NCBI GenBank assembly: GCA_008501785.1
Contig: QQUD01000356.1
Span: 1 to 9,692 of the forward strand
Length of the DNA stretch: 9,692 bases
From: Chloroflexota bacterium
Lineage (GTDB): Bacteria; Chloroflexota; Anaerolineae; Promineifilales; Promineifilaceae
Direction: 5' to 3'
The notes below the pieces were generated by a model. The model searched no databases, was not told where the DNA came from, and saw only the letters and a program-made list of their open reading frames with translations. Below are positions 1-9,692 of the stretch, piece after piece. How positions within the stretch are numbered: position 1 is the stretch's first letter; the number at the start of each line of letters is the position of its first letter. A program made the translations under genes and the position numbers.

Positions 1-964
1 GCACGGTCGAAGTGGCCGTTTACCCGTCAATGTCAAGCTCTGTTTCGATGGCGAGGAAGAAATCGGCTCGCCCAATATCGAGCCATTCGTGAAGTCCAAC
101 CAAACGCTGTTGGCTGCCGATCTGGTACTTATTTCTGATGGGGCTATGATTCGTACGGATCAACCTTCGATTGATTATGGGCTGCGTGGCGTCATTTCTG
201 CTGAAATTCATGTGACTGGGCCGCACCGTGATTTGCATTCAGGCAGCTATGGTGGCTCCGTGCATAACCCGGCACAAGCAATTGCCGAGATTGTGACGGC
301 GCTGCACCATCCTGATGGCTCCGTAGCGATCCCAGGCTTTTACGATGATGTTACGTCACTTTCTCCCGCAGAACGCGAGCTTTTGCAGCAAGTTCCCTAC
401 GACGAAACCCAGTGGGGTGAAGAAACCGGCGCACCCCAACCGTGGGGAGAGTCTGATTTCACCTTTTACGAGCGCATGACATCACGACCAACCTGCGAGG
501 TGAATGGCTTGTGGGGTGGCTTCAGCGGCGAAGGGTTTAAAACGATTATTCCTGCAAAAGCTGGGGCAAAAATTAGTATGCGGTTGGTAGAGAGCCAGGA
601 TGCCAACAAAATATCAGAACAATTTGTTGCATTTGTGGAGAGCCTTGCGCCCGATACTGTAAACGTGTCTGTTGACGTGCAGGCAGGTGCAGATGCGGCA
701 GTGACCCCTCACGACTCACCTTACATTCAGGCTGCGATGCAGGCGTATGAGGCTGGATGGGGCGCAACGGCGGTGCTGAGTCGCGGTGGTGGCTCGCTGC
801 CAATTGTGGCAACTTTCCAAAGTGAATTAGGTACACCTTTTGTGCTGATGCCGTTTGGTTTGGACGATAATCGGCATTCTCCTAACGAACATTACCGGTT
901 GGACCATTTTGATAAGGGGTTGGATACGGCCGTTTACTTCTATCACTTTCTCTCCCAAAATTAA
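1..964 (+). CDS. M20-family dipeptidase (metallopeptidase), 5' end missing
   Basis: The reading frame is open from base 2, so the gene starts left of the window; a GTG at base 89 is only an internal Val codon. About 320 residues are visible. Seen: an acidic EEEIGSP motif (visible residues 18-24) holding the general-base and metal-bridging glutamates of M20 enzymes, SDG (45-47) with the next metal Asp, DLHSGSYGG (77-85) at the start of the lid/dimerisation domain, and NRHSPNEH near the end, where His292 fits the last zinc ligand. The HSG-Y-GG form is typical of the carnosinase/CNDP-like dipeptidase branch rather than ArgE or DapE. The expected role is zinc-dependent hydrolysis of dipeptides or short peptides in the cytoplasm; the substrate cannot be read from sequence. 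The N-terminal HxD metal site lies outside the window. An ACGGCCGT palindrome at 926-933 encodes part of the C-terminus (Thr-Ala-Val). No hairpin terminator follows the TAA. Confidence 0.93.
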   Translation, partial: HGRSGRLPVNVKLCFDGEEEIGSPNIEPFVKSNQTLLAADLVLISDGAMIRTDQPSIDYGLRGVISAEIHVTGPHRDLHSGSYGGSVHNPAQAIAEIVTALHHPDGSVAIPGFYDDVTSLSPAERELLQQVPYDETQWGEETGAPQPWGESDFTFYERMTSRPTCEVNGLWGGFSGEGFKTIIPAKAGAKISMRLVESQDANKISEQFVAFVESLAPDTVNVSVDVQAGADAAVTPHDSPYIQAAMQAYEAGWGATAVLSRGGGSLPIVATFQSELGTPFVLMPFGLDDNRHSPNEHYRLDHFDKGLDTAVYFYHFLSQN

Positions 965-1023
965 TCAAAACTGAATAAAACGCGAAGATTAGATAGTTTG
1001 CGCATTGAAATTGCTTGGCCTCA

Positions 1024-1083
1024 TTGACAAAACGTTTAATTTAGAATAGCTTAATATCAAATAGTTTGCTGTCAAGCTATTTG
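1024..1083 (+). promoter_or_regulatory. Promoter and palindromic MarR-type operator before the regulator gene
   Basis: A perfect TTGACA lies at 1024-1029; the hexamer 17 bp downstream (TAGCTT, 1047-1052) is a weak -10 match. The stronger signal is an inverted repeat at 1058-1083: left arm CAAATAGtTTG, centre CTGT, right arm CAAgCTATTTG, with 10 of 11 positions paired. The right arm ends 9 bases before the ATG at 1093. This size and symmetry fit binding by a MarR dimer and suggest that the regulator represses its own gene. The left half (ATAGTTTGC, 1061-1069) recurs at 993-1001, 68 bp upstream. The palindrome is seen directly; its function as an operator is inferred. Confidence 0.6.
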
Positions 1084-1092
1084 CGAGAAATT

Positions 1093-1542
1093 ATGAGCAC
1101 ACATCATCAGGGAACAGGTGAAGAACGGGCTGCGCTGGATGTCTACATTAAATTGTCACGCGCTGCAAATGCGGTCACAAACCGCATCAATGCACATTTG
1201 GCCGATGTTAATTTGACTATTAGCCAATTTGGGGTGTTAGAGTCACTCTACCATTTGGGTCCCATGCATCAAAACGTGCTTGGTGAAAAAATTCTAAAGA
1301 GCAGCGGCAACATGACTTTGGTGATAGACAATCTTGTAAAACGTGGCCTTGTAGAGCGCCGCCGTGATGAACAAGATCGTCGCTATATTCAAGTTTACCT
1401 CACTGAAGCTGGTAAAGAGCTTATCGACGATATTTTTCCTCGTCATGTGAAAATTGTGGTCAACGAAATGCAAATCCTCTCGTCGGCAGAAAAAAAACAA
1501 CTGGCTCGTTTATGTCGCAAAGTTGGCTTGCAAGACATGTAA
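1093..1542 (+). CDS. MarR-family repressor, MhqR-like
   Basis: A 149-residue winged-helix regulator of normal MarR length. I prefer the ATG at 1093 over the in-frame TTG at 1066, because the longer form would read through the operator-like palindrome and adds only nine residues. Seen: an N-terminal dimerisation helix, then the helix-turn-helix with recognition helix around SSGNMTLVIDNLVKRGLVER, then the wing with DEQDRR, and C-terminal helices including the DDIFPRHV segment. The EKILKSSGNMT stretch resembles the MhqR (YkvE) branch of Bacillus, which represses mhqO/mhqD-type genes and responds to methylhydroquinone and related quinones. The next two genes are of exactly those types, which supports the assignment. 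Its only cysteine is near the C-terminus, so a simple thiol switch like OhrR is not obvious. The ribosome-binding site is weak (GCGAGAAA). MarR membership is very sure; the ligand is inferred from context. Confidence 0.9.
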   Translation: MSTHHQGTGEERAALDVYIKLSRAANAVTNRINAHLADVNLTISQFGVLESLYHLGPMHQNVLGEKILKSSGNMTLVIDNLVKRGLVERRRDEQDRRYIQVYLTEAGKELIDDIFPRHVKIVVNEMQILSSAEKKQLARLCRKVGLQDM

Positions 1543-1836
1543 ATTTTTTAGTCAGAATTTGATTACAATGCTAAAAAGTTTATCAACTTTCACGGAAGCT
1601 GAGAAATAGTTTTCGCTTGAGCAATTTGGTTCATAGCTTCCGGGAAAATGAGGTAACAATTTATTTTAACAGTGTATTGATATTCAAGTAATTTAAGAAG
1701 TAAATGATCAAAGATTGCGCTGATTACGCAGATTTTTCATCGGCGCAATCTGCGTAATCTTTGATAAAAATTAACCGGCAACCCACAATCAACCTCAATC
1801 AATTTGTGGCGTTGTTGGTCTTAGGAGAATCAGTAA
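1543..1836. other. Intergenic region between the MarR gene and the dioxygenase gene
   Basis: This 294-bp stretch holds no gene. Seen in order: a small palindrome AAAGTT-TATC-AACTTT (1575-1590); an 8-bp inverted repeat CGGAAGCT/AGCTTCCG (1593-1600 and 1635-1642) with a 34-nt loop; inside that loop ATAGTTTTC (1606-1614), close to the half-site of the MarR operator; a possible weak promoter TTGATA (1677-1682) with TAAATG (1701-1706) 18 bp downstream; the palindromic repeat at 1707-1765, listed separately; and a good ribosome-binding site AGGAGA (1823-1828), 8 bases before the ATG at 1837. No U-tailed terminator follows the MarR gene, so read-through into the dioxygenase gene is possible. Confidence 0.6.
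1707..1765. repeat. Palindromic intergenic repeat element (ATTACGCAGATT type)
   Basis: A 59-bp dyad-symmetric element. ATTACGCAGATT (1723-1734) pairs perfectly with AATCTGCGTAAT (1747-1758). The outer arms ATCAAAGATT (1707-1716) and AATCTTTGAT (1756-1765) also pair, and GATTGCGC (1713-1720) pairs with GCGCAATC (1743-1750), so several hairpins compete. From memory, words such as AATCTGCGTAATC turn up as dispersed intergenic repeats in many environmental genomes, so this is probably one copy of a small non-coding repeat family (REP/MITE-like). There is no T-tract directly after it, so it is not a standard terminator. Confidence 0.65.
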
Positions 1837-2934
1837 ATGAAAATTCAAGGGTTGCATCACATTACGCTGGTGTGTTCGAATGCGCAGCGTACGGTCGATT
1901 TTTATACAAAGGTGTTGGGTTTGCGTTTGGTGAAGCAGACGGTTAATTTTGATGATCCGGGAGCATATCATCTGTATTTTGGGGATGAAGTGGGGAGGGC
2001 GGGAACGGCCGTTACCTTCTTCGAATGGCCCACTGCACCCAAAGGTCGTCCCGGCATTGGTGGCACGCACCACTTTGCGCTCAACGTGCCAGATTACGAT
2101 GGCTTACTCATGTGGAAACGCCGTCTGACTGATTTGGAGATCAATGTTGATGGCCCATTAGATCGGCATTATTTCACTTCAATTTATTTTCGTGATCCGG
2201 ACGGTGTGATTATTGAAATTGCTACCAGTGGTCCTGGCTTTGTTGCTGATGAAAATGTAGCCACACTGGGAACTGAGCATCGCGATCCACCCGCGCAAAT
2301 GGTTGTGAATAATCGTGACGAAGCTCGCATCAAATCAACGACATGGGCTGAACCAGTTCCTGAGATTAACAGCCAGATGGCACTGCGTCACGGGATGCAC
2401 CACATTACGGCGATTGGCACTGACATTGAGCGCACGCATGCCTTTTTCGGCGATTTGCTGGGGTTGCAGCGGGTGAAAATGACATCGAATTTTGATGATC
2501 CGACGTCGGCGCATTGGTATTGGGGGGTGGAAAACGGCCGTCCTGGGACCCTCATCACCTATTTTGAACGCGATTCGAAGGACAAACGTTATCATCGTGT
2601 GCAAATGGGGGCTGGACAAACGCATCACTATGCATTTAGCGTACCAGATGAAGAAACACAACTTGAGTATCGTGAAAAACTGATTCGGGCTGGATTGCGC
2701 GTGTCGCCAGTAATGGATCGCGTCTACTTCAAAAGTATTTATACCAACGATCCAGATGGTCATATTGTCGAATTAGCAACCGCCGGACCTGGATTTTTAT
2801 ATGATGAGGCTGTCAATGAGTTGGGACAATCGCTGAAGCTGCCACCCTGGTTACAACAACATCGTACCTCAATTGAAAATGCACTAACCCCCTTAAAAGT
2901 AATCCCCTGGAAAAGCTTGGAGTTGGATAAATGA
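1837..2934 (+). CDS. mhqO: Ring-cleaving dioxygenase, VOC/glyoxalase fold (MhqO/PcpA-like)
   Basis: A 365-residue protein made of two VOC modules. Internal duplication is plain: HHIT at 7-10 and 188-191, HH at 78-79 and 263-264, and a DPDG.I.E.AT.GPGF block at about 120-135 and 305-320. In the related hydroquinone dioxygenase PcpA the iron ligands are an N-terminal His plus a His and Glu of the second module 49 residues apart; here His7/8, His263 and Glu312 fit, with exactly that 49 spacing. The predicted reaction is Fe(II)-dependent cleavage of hydroquinone-type rings in the cytoplasm. It is about 40 residues longer than PcpA/MhqO as I recall them, mostly in the linker between modules. A clear ribosome-binding site AGGAGA stands 8 bases before the ATG. 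Its TGA overlaps the next gene's ATG by four bases, so translation is coupled. It carries ACGGCCGT twice (2005-2012 and 2534-2541). Family is sure; substrate is inferred. Confidence 0.88.
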   Translation: MKIQGLHHITLVCSNAQRTVDFYTKVLGLRLVKQTVNFDDPGAYHLYFGDEVGRAGTAVTFFEWPTAPKGRPGIGGTHHFALNVPDYDGLLMWKRRLTDLEINVDGPLDRHYFTSIYFRDPDGVIIEIATSGPGFVADENVATLGTEHRDPPAQMVVNNRDEARIKSTTWAEPVPEINSQMALRHGMHHITAIGTDIERTHAFFGDLLGLQRVKMTSNFDDPTSAHWYWGVENGRPGTLITYFERDSKDKRYHRVQMGAGQTHHYAFSVPDEETQLEYREKLIRAGLRVSPVMDRVYFKSIYTNDPDGHIVELATAGPGFLYDEAVNELGQSLKLPPWLQQHRTSIENALTPLKVIPWKSLELDK

Positions 2935-3581
2935 GTTTATCTAATCCATCTGATCCACATGCAACGCAAACCGTTAAATCAGCGGGACTTGCTGTAAAAG
3001 ATGCCAAAGCTGCTATGATCATGGTGCATGGTCGTGGCGCAACTGCGGAAAACATTCTGACGCTTGCCCCAGAATTTGTACAGCCTCATTTTGCCTATGT
3101 TGCACCACAAGCAGCACAAAATACGTGGTATCCATTTAGCTTTTTGGCTCCCATAGCAAATAATGAACCTGGTATTTCATCTGGCATTTCCAAATTGGGC
3201 AGTCTGGTCGATGAGTTGGTTGCTGCTGGTGTGCCACATCAAAAAATATTTTTACTTGGATTTTCGCAGGGAGCATGTCTGGTGTTGGAGTGTGCTGCAC
3301 GATATGCACAGCGTTATGGGGGTGTCATTGGATTGAGCGGAGGATTGATTGGTCCTGATGACACACCGCGTGATTACGCTGGCTCTTTGAATGGTACGCC
3401 CATTTTTTTAGGTTGCAGCGATGTTGATTTTCACATTCCAAAAGAACGTGTTTTGCAAAGCGCCGAGATTTTAGAAAATTTGGGGGGGAATGTGACGGCA
3501 AAATTGTATCCAGGCATGGGACATACCGTTAATCAAGATGAAATTGAATTTATAAAAAACATGGTAAACAAAATTTCTTGA
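2931..3581 (+). CDS. mhqD: Alpha/beta hydrolase, MhqD-like carboxylesterase/phospholipase family
   Basis: A 216-residue serine hydrolase of the family that includes MhqD and the YtpA/carboxylesterase group. Seen: the oxyanion-loop motif HGRGA (33-37), the nucleophile elbow GFSQG (110-114) with Ser112, the acid in GCSDVD (Asp164, with Asp166 as the alternative), and the catalytic His198 in GMGHTV. Length is normal for the family and there is no signal peptide, so it acts in the cytoplasm. The ATG overlaps the stop of the dioxygenase gene (ATGA, 2931-2934), so the two are co-translated. In Bacillus subtilis mhqD is controlled by the MarR regulator MhqR together with dioxygenase genes, which matches this gene order. 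The precise substrate of MhqD-type hydrolases is not established as far as I know; hydrolysis of a ring-cleavage product or a quinone-derived ester is an inference. Confidence 0.87.
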   Translation: MSLSNPSDPHATQTVKSAGLAVKDAKAAMIMVHGRGATAENILTLAPEFVQPHFAYVAPQAAQNTWYPFSFLAPIANNEPGISSGISKLGSLVDELVAAGVPHQKIFLLGFSQGACLVLECAARYAQRYGGVIGLSGGLIGPDDTPRDYAGSLNGTPIFLGCSDVDFHIPKERVLQSAEILENLGGNVTAKLYPGMGHTVNQDEIEFIKNMVNKIS

Positions 3582-3615
3582 TAGGTAGAGCTGTCGCCGC
3601 TTTTTGATTTCCATA

Positions 3616-3630
3616 TATACTTTTGTCATG
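3616..3630 (+). promoter_or_regulatory. Possible -10 box for a leaderless S41 peptidase transcript
   Basis: TATACT (3616-3621) differs from TATAAT at one base and lies six bases before the ATG at 3628. Transcription from this box would begin about at the A of the start codon. No Shine-Dalgarno sequence precedes that ATG and no convincing -35 hexamer is seen. The alternative is read-through from the hydrolase gene, which ends 46 bp upstream without a clear terminator. Confidence 0.3.
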
Positions 3631-4767
3631 AAACATTTTACGAAATGGAAGGACACGGCCGTTACTATTCTTATCGCAGTTGTGTGGTTTGCGATTGGGT
3701 GGGTGGCAAACGGCCGTTTTCAGAATTCTGATACCGCCTTATTTAAACAAGTGCAAGAAGGCCTGATTGATCATCATGTTGATGAATTGCCATCCAGCCG
3801 AGAAATGACCTACGATGCAATTCGTGGGATGATTGCTGGCGTTGATGACCCATATGCTGCATTTTTCGAACCGGCAATGGGTGCGCTTTTTCAACAAGAT
3901 TATCAAGGAAATACAGGTGTTACTGGGATTTTGCTTGATTTAATTGGCGATCAGTGGGAAGTCATTGTTTTATTGCCGGGGGAACCTGCTGCAGAAGCAG
4001 GTCTACTGCTTGGAGATGTGGTACTGTCGATTGGTGGGGTTTCTTTGACGAGCAGCATAACCGATCCGGAGATTGCTTTGTTGTTGAGAGGTCCAGCCGA
4101 TGAACCAGTTGAATTTGTTGTGCAGCGCGGTGAAGAAACGCTGACATTTGCACCCATACGTAAAGCACGTCCCATTGTGTCGAGTGGAGAAATGCTGGAT
4201 GGTGATATTGCGTATTTTGCCCAGTACACATTTACGGCCAATTCACCAGAATTGGTTAAAGCTGAATTGACCCAACTGCTGGCTCAAAATCCGCGAGCGA
4301 TTATTTGGGATCTGCGCAGCAATGGTGGTGGTTCAATGGATGCAGCCCAAGAAAACTTGAGCTATTTCATTGATGAAGGGCTTTTGTTTACCGTGGCGTT
4401 GAAAGATGGAAAAGAACGGCCGTATCCTGCCAATGGCAACACCCTGGCCCCCAATATTCCGCTGGTTGTGTTGATTGGCGAACGAACCTATTCATCTGCG
4501 GAAACAGCCGCAATTTCGATTGCTGAAAATGAGCGGGGCATTCTGATTGGCAGCACGACTTTTGGCAAAGGGACCGTGCAAGAAACTGTGCCGCTGCTTG
4601 ATGACAGCATGTTGCAATATACCGTTGCTCATTGGCTTTCGCCATCTGGTGTATGGGTGGAGAAAAAGGGGGTAGCACCTCAAATCTACGTAGAAGATGA
4701 TCCTGCAACTGAGGCGGACGAAGTGATTGAAGAAGCGGTACGTTATATTGAAATGGAACTGAAGTAG
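3628..4767 (+). CDS. S41-family C-terminal processing peptidase (CtpA-like), membrane-anchored
   Basis: A 379-residue protease with the standard order of parts. An uncleaved N-terminal membrane segment (about residues 9-27) anchors it so that the catalytic part lies outside the cytoplasm. A cap/N-terminal helical part follows (35-90, with DDPYAAFF), then a PDZ domain (about 95-170) with GEPAAEAGLLLGDVVLSI, which recognises substrate C-termini. The peptidase core has WDLRSNGGG (227-235), SSAE (289-292) and TFGKGTVQ (311-318). Ser289 and Lys314 are 25 residues apart, the same spacing as the Ser-Lys dyad in Prc and D1 processing protease, so it should be active. The ATG at 3628 is preferred over the in-frame TTG at 3604 because it places a short positive tail before the membrane segment. 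Neither start has a good ribosome-binding site. ACGGCCGT occurs at 3655, 3710 and 4416. The substrate is unknown. Confidence 0.92.
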   Translation: MKHFTKWKDTAVTILIAVVWFAIGWVANGRFQNSDTALFKQVQEGLIDHHVDELPSSREMTYDAIRGMIAGVDDPYAAFFEPAMGALFQQDYQGNTGVTGILLDLIGDQWEVIVLLPGEPAAEAGLLLGDVVLSIGGVSLTSSITDPEIALLLRGPADEPVEFVVQRGEETLTFAPIRKARPIVSSGEMLDGDIAYFAQYTFTANSPELVKAELTQLLAQNPRAIIWDLRSNGGGSMDAAQENLSYFIDEGLLFTVALKDGKERPYPANGNTLAPNIPLVVLIGERTYSSAETAAISIAENERGILIGSTTFGKGTVQETVPLLDDSMLQYTVAHWLSPSGVWVEKKGVAPQIYVEDDPATEADEVIEEAVRYIEMELK

Positions 4768-4769
4768 AC

Positions 4770-4817
4770 AGAGACAGAGACAGAAGGTATCTTATTCTGT
4801 CTCTGTCTCTTTTTTTT
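4770..4817 (+). terminator. Rho-independent terminator after the S41 peptidase gene
   Basis: A perfect 16-bp stem (4770-4785 with 4795-4810), a 9-nt loop and a run of eight T (4810-4817). The left arm consists of repeated GACAGA units and starts three bases after the TAG stop. The T-run overlaps the stop codon (4816-4818) of the convergent DUF1800 gene. On the minus strand no T-run follows the stem, so it acts mainly on plus-strand transcription. Confidence 0.92.
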
Positions 4818-6156
4818 ATCTTAATTGAAATTGTGGGGAGTTGAGCATCAAGGCGATGGTTTCCCGTAGGCGTTGTTGGCCTGATTGTGTGAGCAGGTTG
4901 ATGGGAGCATCAAGTCGCTGATCATTGGCTAAATAGTTGACTAATATTTGCCGATCCTCTGGTGCAATTTTGTAGCCGAAAATGTGGTTAATCCAGTAAT
5001 CAACCAATGTGTTTGCTGTTTGTTTTTGGGGAGAGCCGGATTGTGGTTGGGTGTTGAGATGAAAACGGCCGTTTTCATCTTGAAGCTCCATCAGCCAATT
5101 AATCATGCGCCAGCGCATTCGTAAATGTGTGTTGTTTTGCCAGTGAGATTTCACATCTGGGTATCCACCCGGTTCTGGTGAGGCAAAAGGGGCTTGTCCA
5201 ATCTGGCTGTAGCGCCACATAAAGCTATCGCTGATTGCATGATCATATTGAATGATCAAATTTGTGTTTGTAGCTCGTAAAGCCGAGACGATTGTTTCAA
5301 ACGGCCGTTTCACTTTCTCACCCCATGTATTCTGAAATTCTGTAGAAAGCAAAATATGCCTGACGACTTGTTTTAACTGGTCTGGGGCTGATTGTTGATT
5401 GAGAAATATCGTGGTGGCTGATTGCACAATTTGGCTCGTAGGATGATCACTTATGAACCGACAACATAGTTTTGTACAGACAAATCTTGCCGTTTCTTCA
5501 TGATCTTCCATTTCTTGCCAGGGTGATAAATTTGCGATTTCGTTAGAAAGTTGCCATTCTGAGCTGCTAACAACCGCATCTACAAACTGTTGATAGTTTC
5601 CCAGTAAATTAGCTCGTATCACGTTTGCATCATAGTCGATTATGGTTGCGGCAATTTGGGGGGATTGCCATGCATAAATATTAAAATAATCATGCCAAAA
5701 ATCAGCTAATAGCTCGACTAGCTGACTTCGACTGTAAATGGCTCGTAAAAAGTTGAGACGTTCTAATTCGCGCAGCGGCAGCGTTTGTTGGGGATACTCA
5801 ATGGTTTTTTGAAGATGAGCAGAGCTGAGTTCAGCGCGAGATTTATGGATTGTGGAAAAATTGGCTGCAGCTAGATAGGTTTCAAAATCTGTGTCGGAAA
5901 TAGAGTTGGGGTTTAATTGTTGTTCGACGTAGTTAATTAGCCGTTGGGTATCAGTCGCACCAAGCTGTTGGAATTGCTCTAAATCCAAGGGTCGTTGACC
6001 AAATCCGGCTCGATTAAATAGGATGATGGGTAAAGACGGCCGTTTCGTATGAAAACGAAACAAACGATTCGTCGTGGGCAGGTTTGGAACCGTTGCGGGT
6101 GTTGTTTGAGACAATAAACTTTGGTGCTGTGTGAGCCTTGTTGCCGTTAATGTCAT
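4816..6156 (-). CDS. DUF1800-family protein, apparently missing its central part
   Basis: A 446-residue protein recognisable as DUF1800 at both ends. N-terminal: FNRAGFGQRP (47-56) followed by a helical EEWL-like region and ADFWHDYFNI (151-160). C-terminal: ARFVCTKLCCRFISDHP (223-239), the HILLSTEF-NTWGEKVKRPFETIVSALRA block (267-295), GGYPDV (330-335) and RWRMINWLMEL. In the family, a long conserved stretch with a NENYARELLELHTLG-type motif lies between VIRANLLGNYQQFVDAV and the ARFVC block. Here only about 25 unconserved residues (197-222) replace it, in frame. The start ATG has a good ribosome-binding site, GGAGA (6164-6168 on the complement). The DUF1501 gene that often accompanies DUF1800 is not in the window. 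Function is unknown. Either the gene is an expressed shortened variant or it is decaying after an in-frame deletion. It contains ACGGCCGT three times. Confidence 0.85.
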   Translation of the reverse strand: MTLTATRLTQHQSLLSQTTPATVPNLPTTNRLFRFHTKRPSLPIILFNRAGFGQRPLDLEQFQQLGATDTQRLINYVEQQLNPNSISDTDFETYLAAANFSTIHKSRAELSSAHLQKTIEYPQQTLPLRELERLNFLRAIYSRSQLVELLADFWHDYFNIYAWQSPQIAATIIDYDANVIRANLLGNYQQFVDAVVSSSEWQLSNEIANLSPWQEMEDHEETARFVCTKLCCRFISDHPTSQIVQSATTIFLNQQSAPDQLKQVVRHILLSTEFQNTWGEKVKRPFETIVSALRATNTNLIIQYDHAISDSFMWRYSQIGQAPFASPEPGGYPDVKSHWQNNTHLRMRWRMINWLMELQDENGRFHLNTQPQSGSPQKQTANTLVDYWINHIFGYKIAPEDRQILVNYLANDQRLDAPINLLTQSGQQRLRETIALMLNSPQFQLR

Positions 6157-6212
6157 ACGCTTATCTCCAGCATAATGATGAGTTAAAAGTTAAAAGGAGT
6201 TTACGCAAATCA

Positions 6213-6240
6213 TGTATAGAACTTATCAATAGTTTCTCAA
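6213..6240 (-). promoter_or_regulatory. Candidate promoter of the DUF1800 gene
   Basis: On the minus strand TTGAGA (6240-6235) and TATACA (6218-6213) are separated by 16 bp. Transcription would start near 6206, giving a leader of about 50 bases before the ATG at 6156. Fit to the sigma-70 consensus is fair (5/6 and 4/6). Confidence 0.45.
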
Positions 6241-6319
6241 ATTTACCCCCTGTTCGTCAAAAGTACCTATGTCCTATGACACCTTTCCTATTCACTAACT
6301 GTTTGTCACTGCCTATAGT

Positions 6320-6430
6320 TTTTTTACTTGCACGAACTCTTTTTTGAGGACATGAAGTCTTTCCTGAGGACACGAAGTCTTTCCTGAGAACACGAAGTCT
6401 TTCCTGAGGACACGAAGTCTCACCTGAAGA
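6320..6430. repeat. Tandem repeat array, 20-bp unit
   Basis: The unit TTTCCTGAGGACACGAAGTC repeats without spacers. Three near-identical copies lie at 6360-6379, 6380-6399 (one change) and 6400-6419. A diverged copy precedes them (6340-6359), a strongly diverged one before that (6320-6339, sharing the CACGAA-TC end), and a partial copy follows (6420-6430). Copies decay at both edges, as expected for slippage or unequal exchange. There is no open frame through the array. It lies upstream of the DUF1800 promoter, between that gene and the small membrane protein gene. The 20-bp period is close to two DNA turns, so repeated protein binding is possible but unproven. Confidence 0.85.
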
Positions 6431-6583
6431 ATTTTCTCCACTATTTCGAAAATTAAAAAAATATTTTGTTGATTTTTGTATTGCCTATGCGGGAGCCGAT
6501 GAGGAGGCCTTATCGATGAAAGTTCGGACCTAATTTAGCAAACTTTATTCGCGTGAAAAGAAGCAGAAGCATTTGAAGAAGCA
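6431..6583. other. Intergenic stretch with one stable hairpin
   Basis: An AT-rich run (6431-6480) is followed by a hairpin at 6497-6515: CGATGAGG, loop AGG, CCTTATCG (8 pairs including one G-T). The flanks GGAGCCGA and TTCGGACC could extend the fold. No U-tract follows, so it is not a terminator, and I could not match it to a known riboswitch. A promoter for the small gene at 6635 presumably lies here, but I see no convincing -35/-10 pair. Confidence 0.4.
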
Positions 6584-6623
6584 GCTCACTTAATGAGCAA
6601 AAGGCTCATTTTATGAGCAATTT
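6584..6623 (+). promoter_or_regulatory. Two tandem palindromes in the leader of the small membrane protein gene
   Basis: Two 20-bp units stand head to tail. Each begins with a 15-bp dyad: GCTCA-cttaa-TGAGC (6584-6598) and GCTCAT-ttt-ATGAGC (6604-6618). The second ends 6 bases before the ribosome-binding site GGAGAA (6625-6630). As DNA, dyads spaced two helical turns apart look like paired operators. As RNA, four alternately complementary segments can form either hairpins 1:2 and 3:4, or hairpin 2:3. Both readings suggest control of the 6635 gene; which one applies cannot be decided from sequence. Confidence 0.55.
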
Positions 6624-6634
6624 TGGAGAAAATA

Positions 6635-6763
6635 ATGAATAAGCGATTCGATATCAGTGGACAATTAAATGGATTATCCTTTTTTACAAAGAAATATACA
6701 GGCATGATGACTGGGTTCACCATGATGTTAGGATTTACCATGATCTATTTGTTGATGTTTTAA
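6635..6763 (+). CDS. Small Met-rich single-pass membrane protein, 42 residues
   Basis: This short frame starts with ATG behind a good ribosome-binding site (GGAGAA, four bases away) and ends with TAA. The product has a polar, mildly basic N-terminal half (MNKRFDISG then FFTKKYTG) and a hydrophobic C-terminal helix of about 20 residues with seven methionines. The helix contains a small duplication, GFTMML then GFTMIY, also visible in the DNA as two related 18-nt blocks (6714-6731 and 6732-6749). Seven bases after the stop begins a strong terminator, and upstream lies a palindromic leader. The full set of ribosome-binding site, frame, terminator and regulated leader argues for a real gene. I recognise no family. 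A short membrane-active peptide (regulatory subunit, metal-linked Met helix, or toxin of a type I system) would fit the shape, but nothing shows which. No facing antisense RNA gene is evident. Confidence 0.6.
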   Translation: MNKRFDISGQLNGLSFFTKKYTGMMTGFTMMLGFTMIYLLMF

Positions 6764-6769
6764 AACAAA

Positions 6770-6812
6770 AAAACAGTGCCGCTGCCCAATATTGGGCAGC
6801 GCCACTGTTTTT
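6770..6812. terminator. Bidirectional terminator between convergent genes
   Basis: Stem arms AAAACAGTG (6770-6778) and CACTGTTTT (6803-6811), one mismatch, then a perfect inner palindrome of GCTGCCCAAT with ATTGGGCAGC (6781-6800). Five T follow on the plus strand (6808-6812), and a long A-run before the stem (6764-6773) gives the T-tract for the minus strand. It serves both the 42-residue gene (plus) and the rhomboid gene (minus, stop at 6836). Confidence 0.92.
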
Positions 6813-6835
6813 CCTCGTTGGTTGTTGCGTATTAC

Positions 6836-7432
6836 TCAGCGATAGCCGTTCAATTGTTTGCCTGTGAAATAAGCCGCGATTGCACCCCCAATAAACCCAA
6901 ATAAATGTGCCTGCCAGGAAACTCCCTCTGCAATTGGCAAAACACCCCAAATTAAACTGCCATAAAGAAAGAAAACAACAATAGCAATGAGTATTGATTT
7001 AACGCTGCGTTCGAAATAACCTACCAACAGCAAAAATCCAAAATAGCCAAAAATCAGCCCACTGGCCCCGAGATGAACCGAACGAGATGGTCCAATAATC
7101 CAAGTTCCCAGACCACTAACCAGCACAATAATAGTTGAAATATTCAAAAAGTGTTGCAGTTTTCTCGTGCTTAGAATTAACCAGCCTAAAACCAAAAATG
7201 GTACGGTGTTAGCGATTAAATGTTGAAAACTACCGTGTAGCAGTGGCGCTAATGGGATGCCCCATAAACCAGTTAATGTCCGTGGCCGAATGCCAAACGC
7301 ATCGAGTGAGCCACGAAAAATGAGCCAATCCACTAGCTCTATAGCCCAAAGCAGCAGTACAAAACTGCCTAAAAGGGTAAGTTGTTGTTTGAGGGTGTTG
7401 GATATTTGCTGCAAGCGATTGTCGATTTCCAT
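6836..7432 (-). CDS. Rhomboid-family intramembrane serine protease
   Basis: A 198-residue multi-pass membrane protein. I choose the ATG at 7432, which has GAGG nine bases upstream; an in-frame GTG at 7468 would add 12 residues but has no ribosome-binding site. Seen: the first membrane segment (about 18-40), the HGSFQHLIAN signature (66-75, matching the family pattern H....HL..N), the catalytic serine in GASG (Ser124) and the catalytic histidine in SWQAHLFGF (His176), followed by the small-residue helix GFIGGAIAAYF. All elements for the Ser-His dyad are present, so it should cleave membrane-anchored substrates within the bilayer. It has the compact six-helix core without a large extra domain. 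It is divergent from moeA and convergent with the 42-residue gene, so it is monocistronic. The substrate is unknown. Confidence 0.93.
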   Translation of the reverse strand: MEIDNRLQQISNTLKQQLTLLGSFVLLLWAIELVDWLIFRGSLDAFGIRPRTLTGLWGIPLAPLLHGSFQHLIANTVPFLVLGWLILSTRKLQHFLNISTIIVLVSGLGTWIIGPSRSVHLGASGLIFGYFGFLLLVGYFERSVKSILIAIVVFFLYGSLIWGVLPIAEGVSWQAHLFGFIGGAIAAYFTGKQLNGYR

Positions 7433-7473
7433 TGATTGTTGCCTCGAATTTGGGGTCTTGATAAGCACCCGTT

Positions 7474-7543
7474 AAAATAGACTATTGAAACGTAGCTTCA
7501 ATTTAGAAGTGTAGTTTCAATTTAGAAGCATTACTTTTATATT
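7474..7543. promoter_or_regulatory. Divergent promoters for rhomboid and moeA on a direct repeat
   Basis: An 18-bp direct repeat, GTAG(C/T)TTCAATTTAGAAG, occurs at 7492-7509 and 7511-7528 (17 of 18 identical, 19-bp period). Each copy contains CTTC/GAAG dyad ends (the second starts TTTC). Copy 1 supplies a -35-like TTGAAG for the rhomboid gene on the minus strand (7501-7496), with TATTTT (7479-7474) 16 bp away. Copy 2 supplies a -35-like TTTCAA for moeA (7515-7520), with TATATT (7538-7543) 17 bp away. A regulator binding the repeats would cover both -35 regions. The repeats are certain; promoter use is inferred. Confidence 0.5.
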
Positions 7544-7571
7544 TTACGTGATTTCGAACAGAGTGTTGCAT

Positions 7572-8825
7572 ATGCCTGAGTTTTTTAATGTTTTACCACC
7601 AGATGAAGCGCGAGAATTGTTGTTTGAGTATTTAACGGCCGTTCTCCCTCCCGAAACTATCCCGGCCACAGACGCTCTCAATCGCGTCACGGCTAGCCCC
7701 GTTTTTGCCCCACACGCCTTGCCTACATTCCGTCGTAGCACGATGGATGGTTACGCTGTCAAAGCCGTCAATACTTATGGTGCCAGCGAATCTTTGCCTG
7801 CATTTCTCAATGTGATTGGCGAAGTGCCGATGGGGCAGGCGGCTTCTGTCACGTTGCTCACAGGCGAGGCAGCTATTGTTCATACCGGTGGCATGATTCC
7901 TGAAACGGCCGATGCAGTTGTGCAAATCGAGCATACTCAGATTGTGGGTGCAGGCAGGGTGGATGCGCCACCTTATGAAATTGAGGTCTTTAAAGCCGTT
8001 GCTGTGGGGCAAAATGTGCTGCAAGTTGGCGAAGATGTGCAGCATCAAGACGAAATTTTACCAGCAGGTCATTTGCTGCGACCTCAGGATTTGGGTGGAT
8101 TGCTGGCGCTTGGGATTATGGAAGTGAATGTTACCCAGCGACCACGGATTGGTATCTTGGCAACGGGTGACGAAGTGATTCCGCCTGCAAACATGGCTGG
8201 CCCTGGTCAAATTCGGGACATCAACAGCTATACGGTTGCCGGTTTGACGCAGCAGGCTGGAGGCATTCCGGTTATTGGCGAGATTGTCGCGGATGATTTT
8301 GCGGTGCTGGAAACGGCCGCTGCTACCATGTTAGCCGAAACTGATATGCTAGTCATGTCCGCAGGCTCCTCTGTAAGTGTGCGTGACATGACGGTTGATG
8401 TGCTGAACAAGTTAGGGAAACCAGGTGTTTTGCTGCATGGCGTCGCTACGCGACCGGGCAAACCAACGATTGTGGGTGTAGTAGACAACAAACCCATTAT
8501 TGGCTTGCCTGGGAACCCCGTTTCGGCAATGGTGCAGTTTGACATGTTTGGCACACCGGCTATTTACAGGCTGCAAGGTGTGCAGCAGATGCCACGCAGA
8601 GGGTTGGTGTGGGCAAAATTGAGCCAAAACATTGCCAGCGAAAGCGGCCGTGAAGATTATGTGCCCGCTCGACTGGATGATGGTGCTGATGGGCTGACCG
8701 CCACCCCTGTTTTTGGCAAATCCAACTTGATTTATACGCTTGTCAACGCGGATGGGCTGATTAAAATTCCTTTGAACAAAGGTGGTTTGCTGGCTGGTGA
8801 ATGGGTAGAAGTAAGGTTGTTTTAA
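7572..8825 (+). CDS. moeA: Molybdopterin molybdotransferase MoeA
   Basis: A 417-residue protein of normal MoeA length, which inserts molybdate into adenylylated molybdopterin, the last step of molybdenum cofactor synthesis in the cytoplasm. Seen: the N-terminal LPPDEAR start, STMDGYAV (56-63) with Asp59, GEVPMGQ (83-89), HTGGMIPETADAVVQIEHT (104-122), the central MoCF domain with ATGDEV (197-202), PGQIRDINSY (211-220) and the SAGSSVSVRDMT loop (263-274), GLPGNPVSAM (311-320), and the C-terminal beta domain with NADGLIKIP. The glycine-rich loop is SAGSS.S.RDMT instead of the Escherichia coli GGVSVGE.D form. I know this variant from other MoeA-like proteins; Asp272 keeps the position of the conserved acid. 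The ATG at 7572 is chosen over an in-frame GTG at 7548; neither has a strong ribosome-binding site. No other cofactor genes are in the window. CGGCCG cores occur at 7636, 7906, 8314 and 8645. Confidence 0.95.
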   Translation: MPEFFNVLPPDEARELLFEYLTAVLPPETIPATDALNRVTASPVFAPHALPTFRRSTMDGYAVKAVNTYGASESLPAFLNVIGEVPMGQAASVTLLTGEAAIVHTGGMIPETADAVVQIEHTQIVGAGRVDAPPYEIEVFKAVAVGQNVLQVGEDVQHQDEILPAGHLLRPQDLGGLLALGIMEVNVTQRPRIGILATGDEVIPPANMAGPGQIRDINSYTVAGLTQQAGGIPVIGEIVADDFAVLETAAATMLAETDMLVMSAGSSVSVRDMTVDVLNKLGKPGVLLHGVATRPGKPTIVGVVDNKPIIGLPGNPVSAMVQFDMFGTPAIYRLQGVQQMPRRGLVWAKLSQNIASESGREDYVPARLDDGADGLTATPVFGKSNLIYTLVNADGLIKIPLNKGGLLAGEWVEVRLF

Positions 8826-9144: not shown

Positions 9145-9165
9145 ATGGGTTAATAATTGAAATCT

Positions 9166-9692
9166 ATGAATCTTACCTATTTGAATAATACCATTCTTCC
9201 GCATGAGCAAAAAGTTGTCATCTTGCCTCGGCAAGATTTTGAGGTAGCTGAATATTTTGCAGGTATTGGTTTGGTACGATTAGGTTTGGAAATTGCTGGT
9301 TGGAAAGTTGTTTTTGCAAACGATTATGCAATTGAGAAATATAAAATGTATCATGCATTTTTTAATGATTTTCAAGATCATTACGTTATTGAAAATATTT
9401 TCAATTTGAATCCCAATATTATCCCGAAAACTTTACTTGCTACAGCTTCTTTTCCATGTATCGATTTATCTTTAGCTGGTAAGCAAAACGGAATTAATGG
9501 TACATATTCCAGTGCATTTTGGGGATTTATAGAGATTCTAAAAAAGCAAGACAATGAAAAACCAAAATTAGTTTTGTTAGAAAATGTCAATGGTTGGTTA
9601 ACTTCTAATAATGGGGATGATTTTAGACTAACTATAAAAGCATTAAATTCGTTAGGTTATGCATGTGATGTAATTTCGTTAGATGCAATCCG
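9166..9692 (+). CDS. DNA (cytosine-5-)methyltransferase, 3' end beyond the window
   Basis: 175 residues are visible, open to the right edge. Seen: motif I EYFAGIGLVRLGLE (29-42) for S-adenosylmethionine binding, the acidic motif II position ND (52-53), motif IV FPCIDLSLAGKQNG (96-109) with the nucleophile Cys98, and motif VI LENVNGW (138-144). These are the C5-methylase motifs in the right order and spacing; the motif IV form PCIDLS replaces the usual PCQ(P/D)FS. The variable target-recognition region and motifs IX-X are not in the window, so the recognition sequence cannot be guessed. The ATG at 9166 has no good ribosome-binding site, and no better in-frame start is seen. The gene is AT-rich compared with moeA and lacks the ACGGCCGT word, both consistent with horizontal transfer. 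It could be part of a restriction-modification system or a solitary methylase. Confidence 0.93.
   Translation, partial: MNLTYLNNTILPHEQKVVILPRQDFEVAEYFAGIGLVRLGLEIAGWKVVFANDYAIEKYKMYHAFFNDFQDHYVIENIFNLNPNIIPKTLLATASFPCIDLSLAGKQNGINGTYSSAFWGFIEILKKQDNEKPKLVLLENVNGWLTSNNGDDFRLTIKALNSLGYACDVISLDAI

Follow-up and report, generated by a model that had tools for sequence, protein, structure and literature searches.

A HIP1-like palindromic octamer with a CGGCCG core in one order of Chloroflexota

HIP1 (GCGATCGC), the highly iterated palindrome of cyanobacteria, was first described in 1995 (PMC3497702), and in the parts of the literature covered here its function is still unsettled. According to one survey, HIP1 is found at 300-2,700 copies per Mb with observed-to-expected ratios of 55-228, every cyanobacterial genome in which sequences are highly over-represented encodes a putative methyltransferase that could act on these, and in four strains rich in HIP1 no CGATCG methyltransferase is recognizable (PMC4390886). 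HIP1 sites are stated, in a further paper, to be maintained by selection (PMC6604393, citing Xu et al. 2018). A preliminary description of a Chloroflexota contig drew a parallel with HIP1 for an octamer palindrome of different sequence, ACGGCCGT, and suggested that it may be a methylation target, a word for DNA uptake or repair, or an element of nucleoid organisation.

The window examined, meaning the whole 9.7-kb stretch of DNA analysed, contains ten exact copies of ACGGCCGT, as originally counted, compared with a mean of 0.07 and a maximum of 1 in 200 dinucleotide-preserving shuffles. The reported excess of more than 60-fold is real but too low as a figure, given a 131-fold excess over the first-order Markov expectation of 0.08. 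Every other 8-bp palindrome is present at most three times in the window. The copies (coordinates unstranded) occupy all three codon frames (4, 3 and 3 copies) of genes on both strands, as described, though in five genes rather than six. They lie in an M20 peptidase gene (926..933, frame 0, read as ACG GCC GT), a VOC dioxygenase gene (2005..2012, frame 0, and 2534..2541, frame 1, both kept in loci L001, L002 and L003), an S41 peptidase gene (3655..3662, frame 0; 3710..3717, frame 1; 4416..4423, frame 2), a DUF1800 gene on the minus strand (5065..5072, frame 1; 5301..5308, frame 2; 6036..6043, frame 2) and the MoeA gene (7635..7642, frame 0). The longer symmetry AAACGGCCGTTT noted at 3708-3719 and 5299-5310 is present at both positions, and the copy at 5065, with symmetric gaaa/tttc flanks, likewise lies within AAACGGCCGTTT. 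The exact copies end at 7642 and not at 8651, where instead a near-match, GCGGCCGT (8644..8651), comes to its end with the core intact; two other near-matches, ACGGCCGA (7905..7912) and ACGGCCGC (8313..8320), also have an intact core. The reported lack of intergenic copies holds for the window, where only 1,555 bases are intergenic and one to two copies are expected, but not for relatives. Similarly, the right end is free of exact copies for 2.05 kb, which is too short to carry much meaning.

Whole-genome counts for the three closest relatives gave 11,524, 12,611 and 5,641 copies in 5.8, 6.0 and 4.9 Mb, respectively, versus 218, 237 and 201 for the reversed word. At least 2,887 copies were found in 29 of the 56 genomes of one Chloroflexota order, including one genome (G048) of the CGGCCG type described below, and counts were at most 430 in all 361 members of the class sampled from outside this order. 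In the 28 ACGGCCGT genomes, the density is ~440-2,090 per Mb. A genome-wide count near the Markov expectation, or equal enrichment of other GC-rich palindromes, had been put forward as evidence that would speak against the parallel with HIP1. The sampled DNA was instead mostly at 47-123 times the first-order Markov expectation (the exceptions being G029 at 9.8 and G041 at 175, the latter from only 4.2 kb, with no scorable sample for G032), and the next-best 8-bp palindrome among those listed for the ACGGCCGT genomes reached 6.9-fold. For the conservation and methylase counts below, the ACGGCCGT group comprises 27 genomes, leaving out G014 (2,887 copies), whose samples are word-poor, and retaining G029 despite its word-poor samples. 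The word is not abundant in G024, even though this genome falls inside the ACGGCCGT clade, and G033-G040 form a word-poor sister group. Intergenic DNA of the relatives has 118 sites in 116.6 kb versus 1.4 expected, with the same flank preference as the coding copies.

Other genomes of the order have words with the same core. TCGGCCGA is the word of G010 (9,414 copies) and G028 (7,668 copies), GCGGCCGC is present 62 times in 42.6 kb of G044 (79-fold), and six genomes are enriched 7- to 14-fold for CGGCCG without one fixed outer pair. Near-misses that differ at the outer base occur at 1.4-4.6 times expectation, compared with 0.3-1.6 for core differences, and 27 of 36 distinct one-step variants are at the outer pair; the other nine are core losses, seven of them C-to-T or G-to-A, too few to read. 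We conclude that ACGGCCGT is a HIP, being dispersed at hundreds to thousands of copies per Mb, with no comparable palindrome in the window or among those listed for the sampled DNA, deviations at the outer base and alternate words. The parallel with HIP1 was borne out in density, fold enrichment, the combination of a core with a variable outer pair, outer near-misses, flank extensions and alternate words in sister lineages (PMC4390886), as well as in carriage by some phages. The sequence differs, as noted at the outset, with a CGGCCG core in place of CGATCG, no GATC and a different phylum. This is a HIP system like that of the cyanobacteria, and we found no report of ACGGCCGT or a CGGCCG palindrome in Chloroflexota in the literature covered, which did not extend to subscription papers and preprints.

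The flanks of the word have a symmetric preference, GGAA-word-TTCC, in which the two half-sites are independent, and C and G are nearly excluded beside TCGGCCGA in G010 and G028 (0.03 and 0.13 of expectation). Together with the near-random spacing of the copies, these features would suit a word bound by an abundant protein that organises the nucleoid or chromosome and takes no part in self-recognition. We regard this explanation as unlikely, however, as no candidate protein was found and the phage-like contigs discussed below conserve the word in a way that an architectural site would not obviously need.

Conservation was assessed with all sampled loci pooled, as a comparison of two contigs alone gave only 24 orthologous pairs, and with overlapping frames removed, which kept 906 of 1,559 gene pairs. 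At third-codon identity of 0.6-0.7, where 32 of 40 gene pairs are from one genus-level group (G005-G009), 190 of 203 ACGGCCGT sites were kept, compared to 680 of 2,556 same-composition 8-mers (27%) and 4 of 90 other palindromes of the same composition. The frame-0 sites alone were kept at 76 of 80 versus 314 of 859 controls. The pooled counts are not independent, owing to common ancestry among the genome pairs and to overlap of a few stretches within G030 and G031, but nine genome pairs taken singly went in the same direction. An all-8-mer scan with no preset word ranked ACGGCCGT first (1,946 of 2,934 kept, 215 expected), and the same scan for 6-mers in the CGGCCG-type genomes ranked CGGCCG first (88 of 155 kept, 27.7 expected). 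Fourfold sites in pairs at 0.6-0.8 had 96-100% identity within the word and 60% identity at distance 1, against a background of 62.5%, and this first outside base was at or below background in all three divergence classes. Distances 2 and 4 were also high (0.86 and 0.85) in the 0.6-0.8 class but in neither of the two classes of greater divergence. Site conservation has an edge near 8 bp.

At third-codon identity of 0.35-0.55, the frame-0 copies were kept at just 20-33% (controls 12-21%), so single copies are conserved over long times only to a limited extent. Copies in frames 1 and 2 were kept at 50-86%, to which constraint on the residues they encode may contribute. With larger divergence, many copies were gained or lost and the density was unchanged. 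Turnover in frame 0 with density held is what would be expected of a repair, conversion or mismatch ratchet that generates the word and shields it, with no selection for its use, as in Elhai's methyl-directed repair model or very-short-patch repair, and the rarity of one-step core variants also fits. The drop in conservation to background or below from the first base outside the word argues against such a ratchet.

The word also affects protein sequence. Thr-Ala-Val tripeptides occur 956 times versus 154 expected from composition, a six-fold excess, and 922 of the 956 are spelled by ACGGCCGT; in the word-poor sister group there are 23 versus 22 expected, 13 of them spelled by ACGGCCGT. The word therefore overrides protein sequence, with copies written even where the protein changes, and abundance strong enough to shape proteins points to a DNA-reading system. 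The imposed amino acid changes would be expected from a biased conversion or repair drive no less than from selection. Composition, codon bias or a repeated protein motif could account for frame 0 being the most used (755 of 1,442 coding sites), but we consider this explanation practically negligible given the loss of the tripeptide excess in the sister group and the poor retention of other palindromes of the same composition. The spread over three frames and both strands, with intergenic copies in the relatives, leads to the same view, which the preliminary description had already taken of codon bias and of a single protein motif.

Methylation of a cytosine of CGGCCG, with the word kept for the methyl mark in the way proposed for the cyanobacterial HIPs, would be consistent with a core of the type read by C-methylases, a changing outer pair and near-misses at the outer base, as for HIP1. 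Cyanobacterial HIPs are, in the covered literature, usually paired with a putative methyltransferase, whereas none of those tested fits the distribution of the Chloroflexota word. At E<=1e-8, in searches for which the yardstick genes rpoB and mutL were each missing from 6 of 56 genomes, C5 methylases (PF00145) were not found in 13 of the 27 ACGGCCGT genomes and N4/N6 methylases (PF01555) were not found in 4 of the 27 or in 4 of the 6 CGGCCG-type genomes. Both families were not found in G008, G031, G041 and G052 at this threshold. The C5 methylases compared belong to several families; one, common to G011, G049 and G050, is also present in the word-poor G033, where it adjoins a Vsr gene. The best-distributed candidate reader, which fits in part, is a permuted DUF1156-like methyltransferase encoded in 25 of the 27 ACGGCCGT genomes, both TCGGCCGA genomes and the GCGGCCGC genome and not found in G024. 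This protein is also present in all eight word-poor genomes G033-G040 and in word-poor relatives outside the order, however, and in none of the six CGGCCG-type genomes (in one survey of these proteins, up to four candidates were scored per genome and absences there mean little). A methylation-target role is possible, as first suggested, but we judge it somewhat unlikely.

Vsr (PF03852), the endonuclease of very-short-patch repair, is encoded in only 8 of the 56 genomes of the order and does not fit as the driver of a ratchet. MutL, which would be compatible with a ratchet, is present in 50 of 56 and does not discriminate, since G024 and G033-G040 do not have the abundant word though all but G040 have MutL. 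We thus consider a ratchet without selection on word use improbable.

Phage carriage is known for HIP1, with 26 and 23 copies in 40 kb of the Nostoc phages N1 and A1, versus 0.10 and 0.16 expected. Among 22 viral contigs, which were picked for containing the extended word and so do not give a phage-wide share, 13 have the Chloroflexota word at 70-176-fold, and phage-type genes are present on five of the word-rich contigs. The sites were kept at 48 of 56 versus 78 of 371 at 65-80% identity, about as strictly as in the hosts, which are assigned from the word only. The word-rich viral contigs also carry methylase-like genes of several families, with less than 31% identity to the host methylases compared, in alignments longer than 100 residues. 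The presence and conservation of the word at host density in phage-like genomes suggest that the reader would act on whatever DNA is replicated in the cell.

Collectively, we favor the interpretation, with a probability of about 45%, that ACGGCCGT, as the HIP of this Chloroflexota order, is recognised by a sequence-specific factor and has its use under selection, perhaps as a density-coded self mark. The putative reader would be a single protein that binds DNA or modifies a core cytosine, contacting the CGGCCG core most strongly and the outer base pair more weakly. Selection on word use, beyond biased mutation or repair, would maintain copies that are held among close relatives, gained and lost over longer times at steady density, and written despite protein change. 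As a self mark in DNA processing, the word might spare or guide the repair, recombination or degradation of word-bearing DNA, as a palindromic counterpart of Chi. The likeness to Chi (RecBCD/AddAB) is that of a short word, over-represented genome-wide, with relevance to DNA processing; Chi sites are asymmetric and work in an orientation-dependent way, whereas the Chloroflexota word is palindromic, and the uptake words of the Pasteurellaceae and Neisseriaceae are not palindromes. Chi is set beside HIP1 in one paper (PMC5101192), and DNA uptake sequences share with the word the character of an abundant short word (PMC1939737).

A second HIP system, with another phylum, another core, related words and natural losses in one order, allows comparative tests beyond the cyanobacteria. 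Because the host word can be carried by phages in both groups and is conserved on phage-like contigs, the range of possible functions is narrowed to those with an effect on any cellular DNA. A broader and rather doubtful extension is that HIPs are a convergent density-coded self mark in at least two phyla, with phages needing to carry the host word for tolerance and a reader that is independent of one conserved methyltransferase. A word that sets tripeptides proteome-wide would be a striking example of proteins shaped by demands at the level of DNA, and the word could help in linking phages and contigs to their uncultured hosts in this order.

All ten exact copies of the 8-bp palindrome ACGGCCGT (core CGGCCG) that the preliminary description counted in the window are present, where shuffles give 0.07, and the next commonest 8-bp palindrome has three copies. 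The window is of Chloroflexota origin, the best named match of its dioxygenase being an Ardenticatenaceae MAG (81% identity), and its genes are all ordinary: M20 peptidase, MarR regulator, VOC dioxygenase, esterase, S41 peptidase, DUF1800, rhomboid, MoeA and a C5 methylase truncated at the right edge. All genome-wide figures are from relatives of the window's source. Bacterial and archaeal genomes were scanned with a dioxygenase alignment, the best 80 of the 130 loci being retained. The three closest loci (L001, L002 and L003; 79-82% identity) carry 37 copies in 15.0 kb, 55 in 20.7 kb and 16 in 10.9 kb, ~100 times expectation, and the remaining 77 carry 0 to 2 per locus. Whole-genome counts for the three closest relatives (11,524, 12,611 and 5,641) bore out the high iteration proposed from the window, with about 200 copies per genome of the reversed control, TGCCGGCA.

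The abundance is confined to one order in the genomes covered. At least 2,887 copies of ACGGCCGT were found in 29 of the 56 genomes of this order, and at most 430 in all 361 genomes from outside it in a class-wide sample (n=396). A word-poor sister group (G033-G040) has 220-646 copies, more than the reversed control (91-222) and far fewer than the other genomes. G029, with 11,907 copies genome-wide vs 4 in the 40.9 kb sampled (C1, C2, L099) and with GAGCTC enriched 4.2-fold in the first sample, is probably a mixed assembly.

Members of the order poor in ACGGCCGT often carry another word. TCGGCCGA, with the same core, is used by G010 and G028 (51- and 50-fold in samples; 9,414 and 7,668 copies genome-wide), and GCGGCCGC by G044 (62 in 42.6 kb, 79-fold). 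In six further genomes (G011, G048-G052) CGGCCG is enriched 7- to 14-fold without a single fixed outer pair; G011 and G048, the latter among the 29 above, lean to an A..T outer pair (ACGGCCGT 25- and 34-fold), and G049-G051 have 1,889-2,070 TCGGCCGA. The TCGGCCGA neighbours in the G010 and G028 samples are nearly always A or T (0.03 of expectation for C, 0.13 for G), and the functional unit in these genomes may thus be the 10-bp WTCGGCCGAW. G023 has 3,665 copies of TGCCGGCA in 4.0 Mb vs only 14 of ACGGCCGT, possibly a further highly iterated palindrome (HIP) with a different core. On an RpoB tree (50 genomes, quick search, midpoint root, 10 of 47 inner branches open), all 23 of the ACGGCCGT genomes tested fall on one side of a single branch (support 93), and the TCGGCCGA, CGGCCG-type and TGCCGGCA genomes group together (support 87). 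The sister group adjoins the ACGGCCGT clade, and G024, with 155 copies, lies inside it.

The words are also conserved. In orthologous genes of ACGGCCGT genomes at third-codon identity 0.6-0.7, 190 of 203 copies were kept; the controls of identical composition were other 8-mers (680 of 2,556 kept) and other palindromes (4 of 90 kept). These comparisons come mostly from one group, G005-G009 (32 of 40 gene pairs). In frame 0, where synonymous change is possible, the figures were 76/80 for the word and 314/859 for controls. At identity 0.35-0.55, the word was kept in 20-33% of cases in frame 0 (controls 12-21%) and in 50-86% in frames 1 and 2 (controls 6-14%). Therefore, copies turn over in the long term where the protein gives no support, while density persists. 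Fourfold sites inside the word were 96-100% identical in the 0.6-0.8 class, with 60% at the first outside position and a background of 62.5%; sites at distances 2 and 4 were high in this class alone (0.86, 0.85). In the other two classes, both more diverged, sites inside the word ranged over 0.65-0.99 vs backgrounds of 0.41-0.47. An unbiased scan over all 8-mers placed ACGGCCGT at the top (1,946 of 2,934 kept, 215 expected), as did a 6-mer scan of the CGGCCG-type genomes for CGGCCG (88 of 155, 27.7 expected); in the sister group neither was among the eight words listed. Position 1525 of rpoB is ACGGCCGT in 21 of 22 aligned genomes of the ACGGCCGT group and in five further genomes too; in G024 it is ACGGTCGT. 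In L001-L003, at a nucleotide identity of 69-75%, the window's two dioxygenase sites are intact (6/6), vs 3 of 73 control 8-mers.

Protein sequences bear the imprint of the word. Thr-Ala-Val occurs 956 times in 382,461 codons of ACGGCCGT genomes, where amino-acid composition predicts 154. The word spells 922 of the 956, even though ACG accounts for 31% of Thr codons and GCC for 45% of those for Ala; thus ACGGCCGT is written at the protein's expense. The corresponding numbers were 23 vs 22 in the sister group, 9 vs 18 in G010 and G028 (one spelled by ACGGCCGT) and 29 vs 18 in the CGGCCG-type genomes (19 so spelled). The word spells 13 of the 23 in the sister group samples, though it is not abundant there, and a remnant or weakened version of the system may persist in these genomes. 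A protein-level cost would be expected under selection and under conversion drive alike, and a repair drive spreading the word is a real alternative; Vsr, the very-short-patch repair endonuclease, was found in only 8 of the 56 genomes of the order. One genome, G027, has three Vsr genes. By approximate gene calls, 118 copies are intergenic (116.6 kb, 1.4 expected) and 1,442 coding (897 kb), with a flank preference for GGAA / TTCC common to both. Spacing is near exponential, with 85 pairs closer than 50 bp vs 136 expected; a role as an architectural site is likewise a real alternative.

Phage-like DNA carries the word as well. Viral contigs were scanned with the extended 16-mer and thus chosen by word (29 stretches, 22 contigs); 13 of the 22 have ACGGCCGT at 70-176 times expectation (1.2-2.8 per kb), three of the thirteen having identical stretches in common, and the other nine have one or two copies each. 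Among 20 proteins scanned, phage-type matches were found on five contigs: a terminase large subunit (L289), a DnaB-like helicase and replication protein O (L291), an endolysin (L288), a primase (L302) and a Gp37-like protein (L301). L309, with actin-like and HerA-like matches, could be another kind of element. Sites were kept in 48 of 56 cases at 65-80% identity (control words 78/371) and in 38 of 39 at 80-90% (132/351). The proposed parallel with HIP1, the cyanobacterial octamer, extends to phages: Nostoc phages N1 and A1 carry 26 and 23 copies of HIP1 in 40 kb vs 0.10 and 0.16 expected. Word-rich viral contigs encode several methylase-like genes, which belong to different families (L302:7110-7949, 9802-10542; L305:72-995, 9698-10996).

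Cyanobacterial HIPs accompany methyltransferases, with some exceptions (PMC4390886). For the word studied here, a methyl mark is a real alternative function. At E<=1e-8, C5 methylases went undetected in 13 of 27 ACGGCCGT genomes and N4/N6 methylases in 4 of 27, and neither was detected in G008, G031, G041 and G052. With rpoB and mutL, used as yardsticks, lacking in 6 of 56 genomes each, gaps in the assemblies are unlikely to explain the C5 result by themselves. The window's C5 methylase, an N-terminal part cut by the window edge (9157-9690, + strand; PF00145, TIGR00675), is 65% identical across 148 aa to a G026 methylase with a Vsr gene nearby. Through a weak split match we reached a ~660 aa methyltransferase whose motifs are permuted and which matches DUF1156 weakly; it is a candidate reader, not the answer. 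It is present in 25 of 27 ACGGCCGT genomes, G010, G028 and G044, and was not found in G024 or any CGGCCG-type genome; it also occurs in all eight sister-group genomes, in G014, G016, G046, G047 and G054-G056, and outside the order at 48-60% identity. The G021 copy (G021:C73:282-2246) shares 81% identity with its G001 counterpart, above those of G012, G013 and G003, which are nearer G001 on the RpoB tree; this suggests horizontal transfer.

The enrichment, the variant words, the site conservation and the imprint on proteins are direct observations. Our reading is that ACGGCCGT forms a HIP system of independent sequence, the word being held by strong pressure, in which selection and drive may both have a share. 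A putative sequence-specific protein would read the word and would also act on phage DNA. Of the possible functions, we infer a self mark in DNA processing to be the likeliest.
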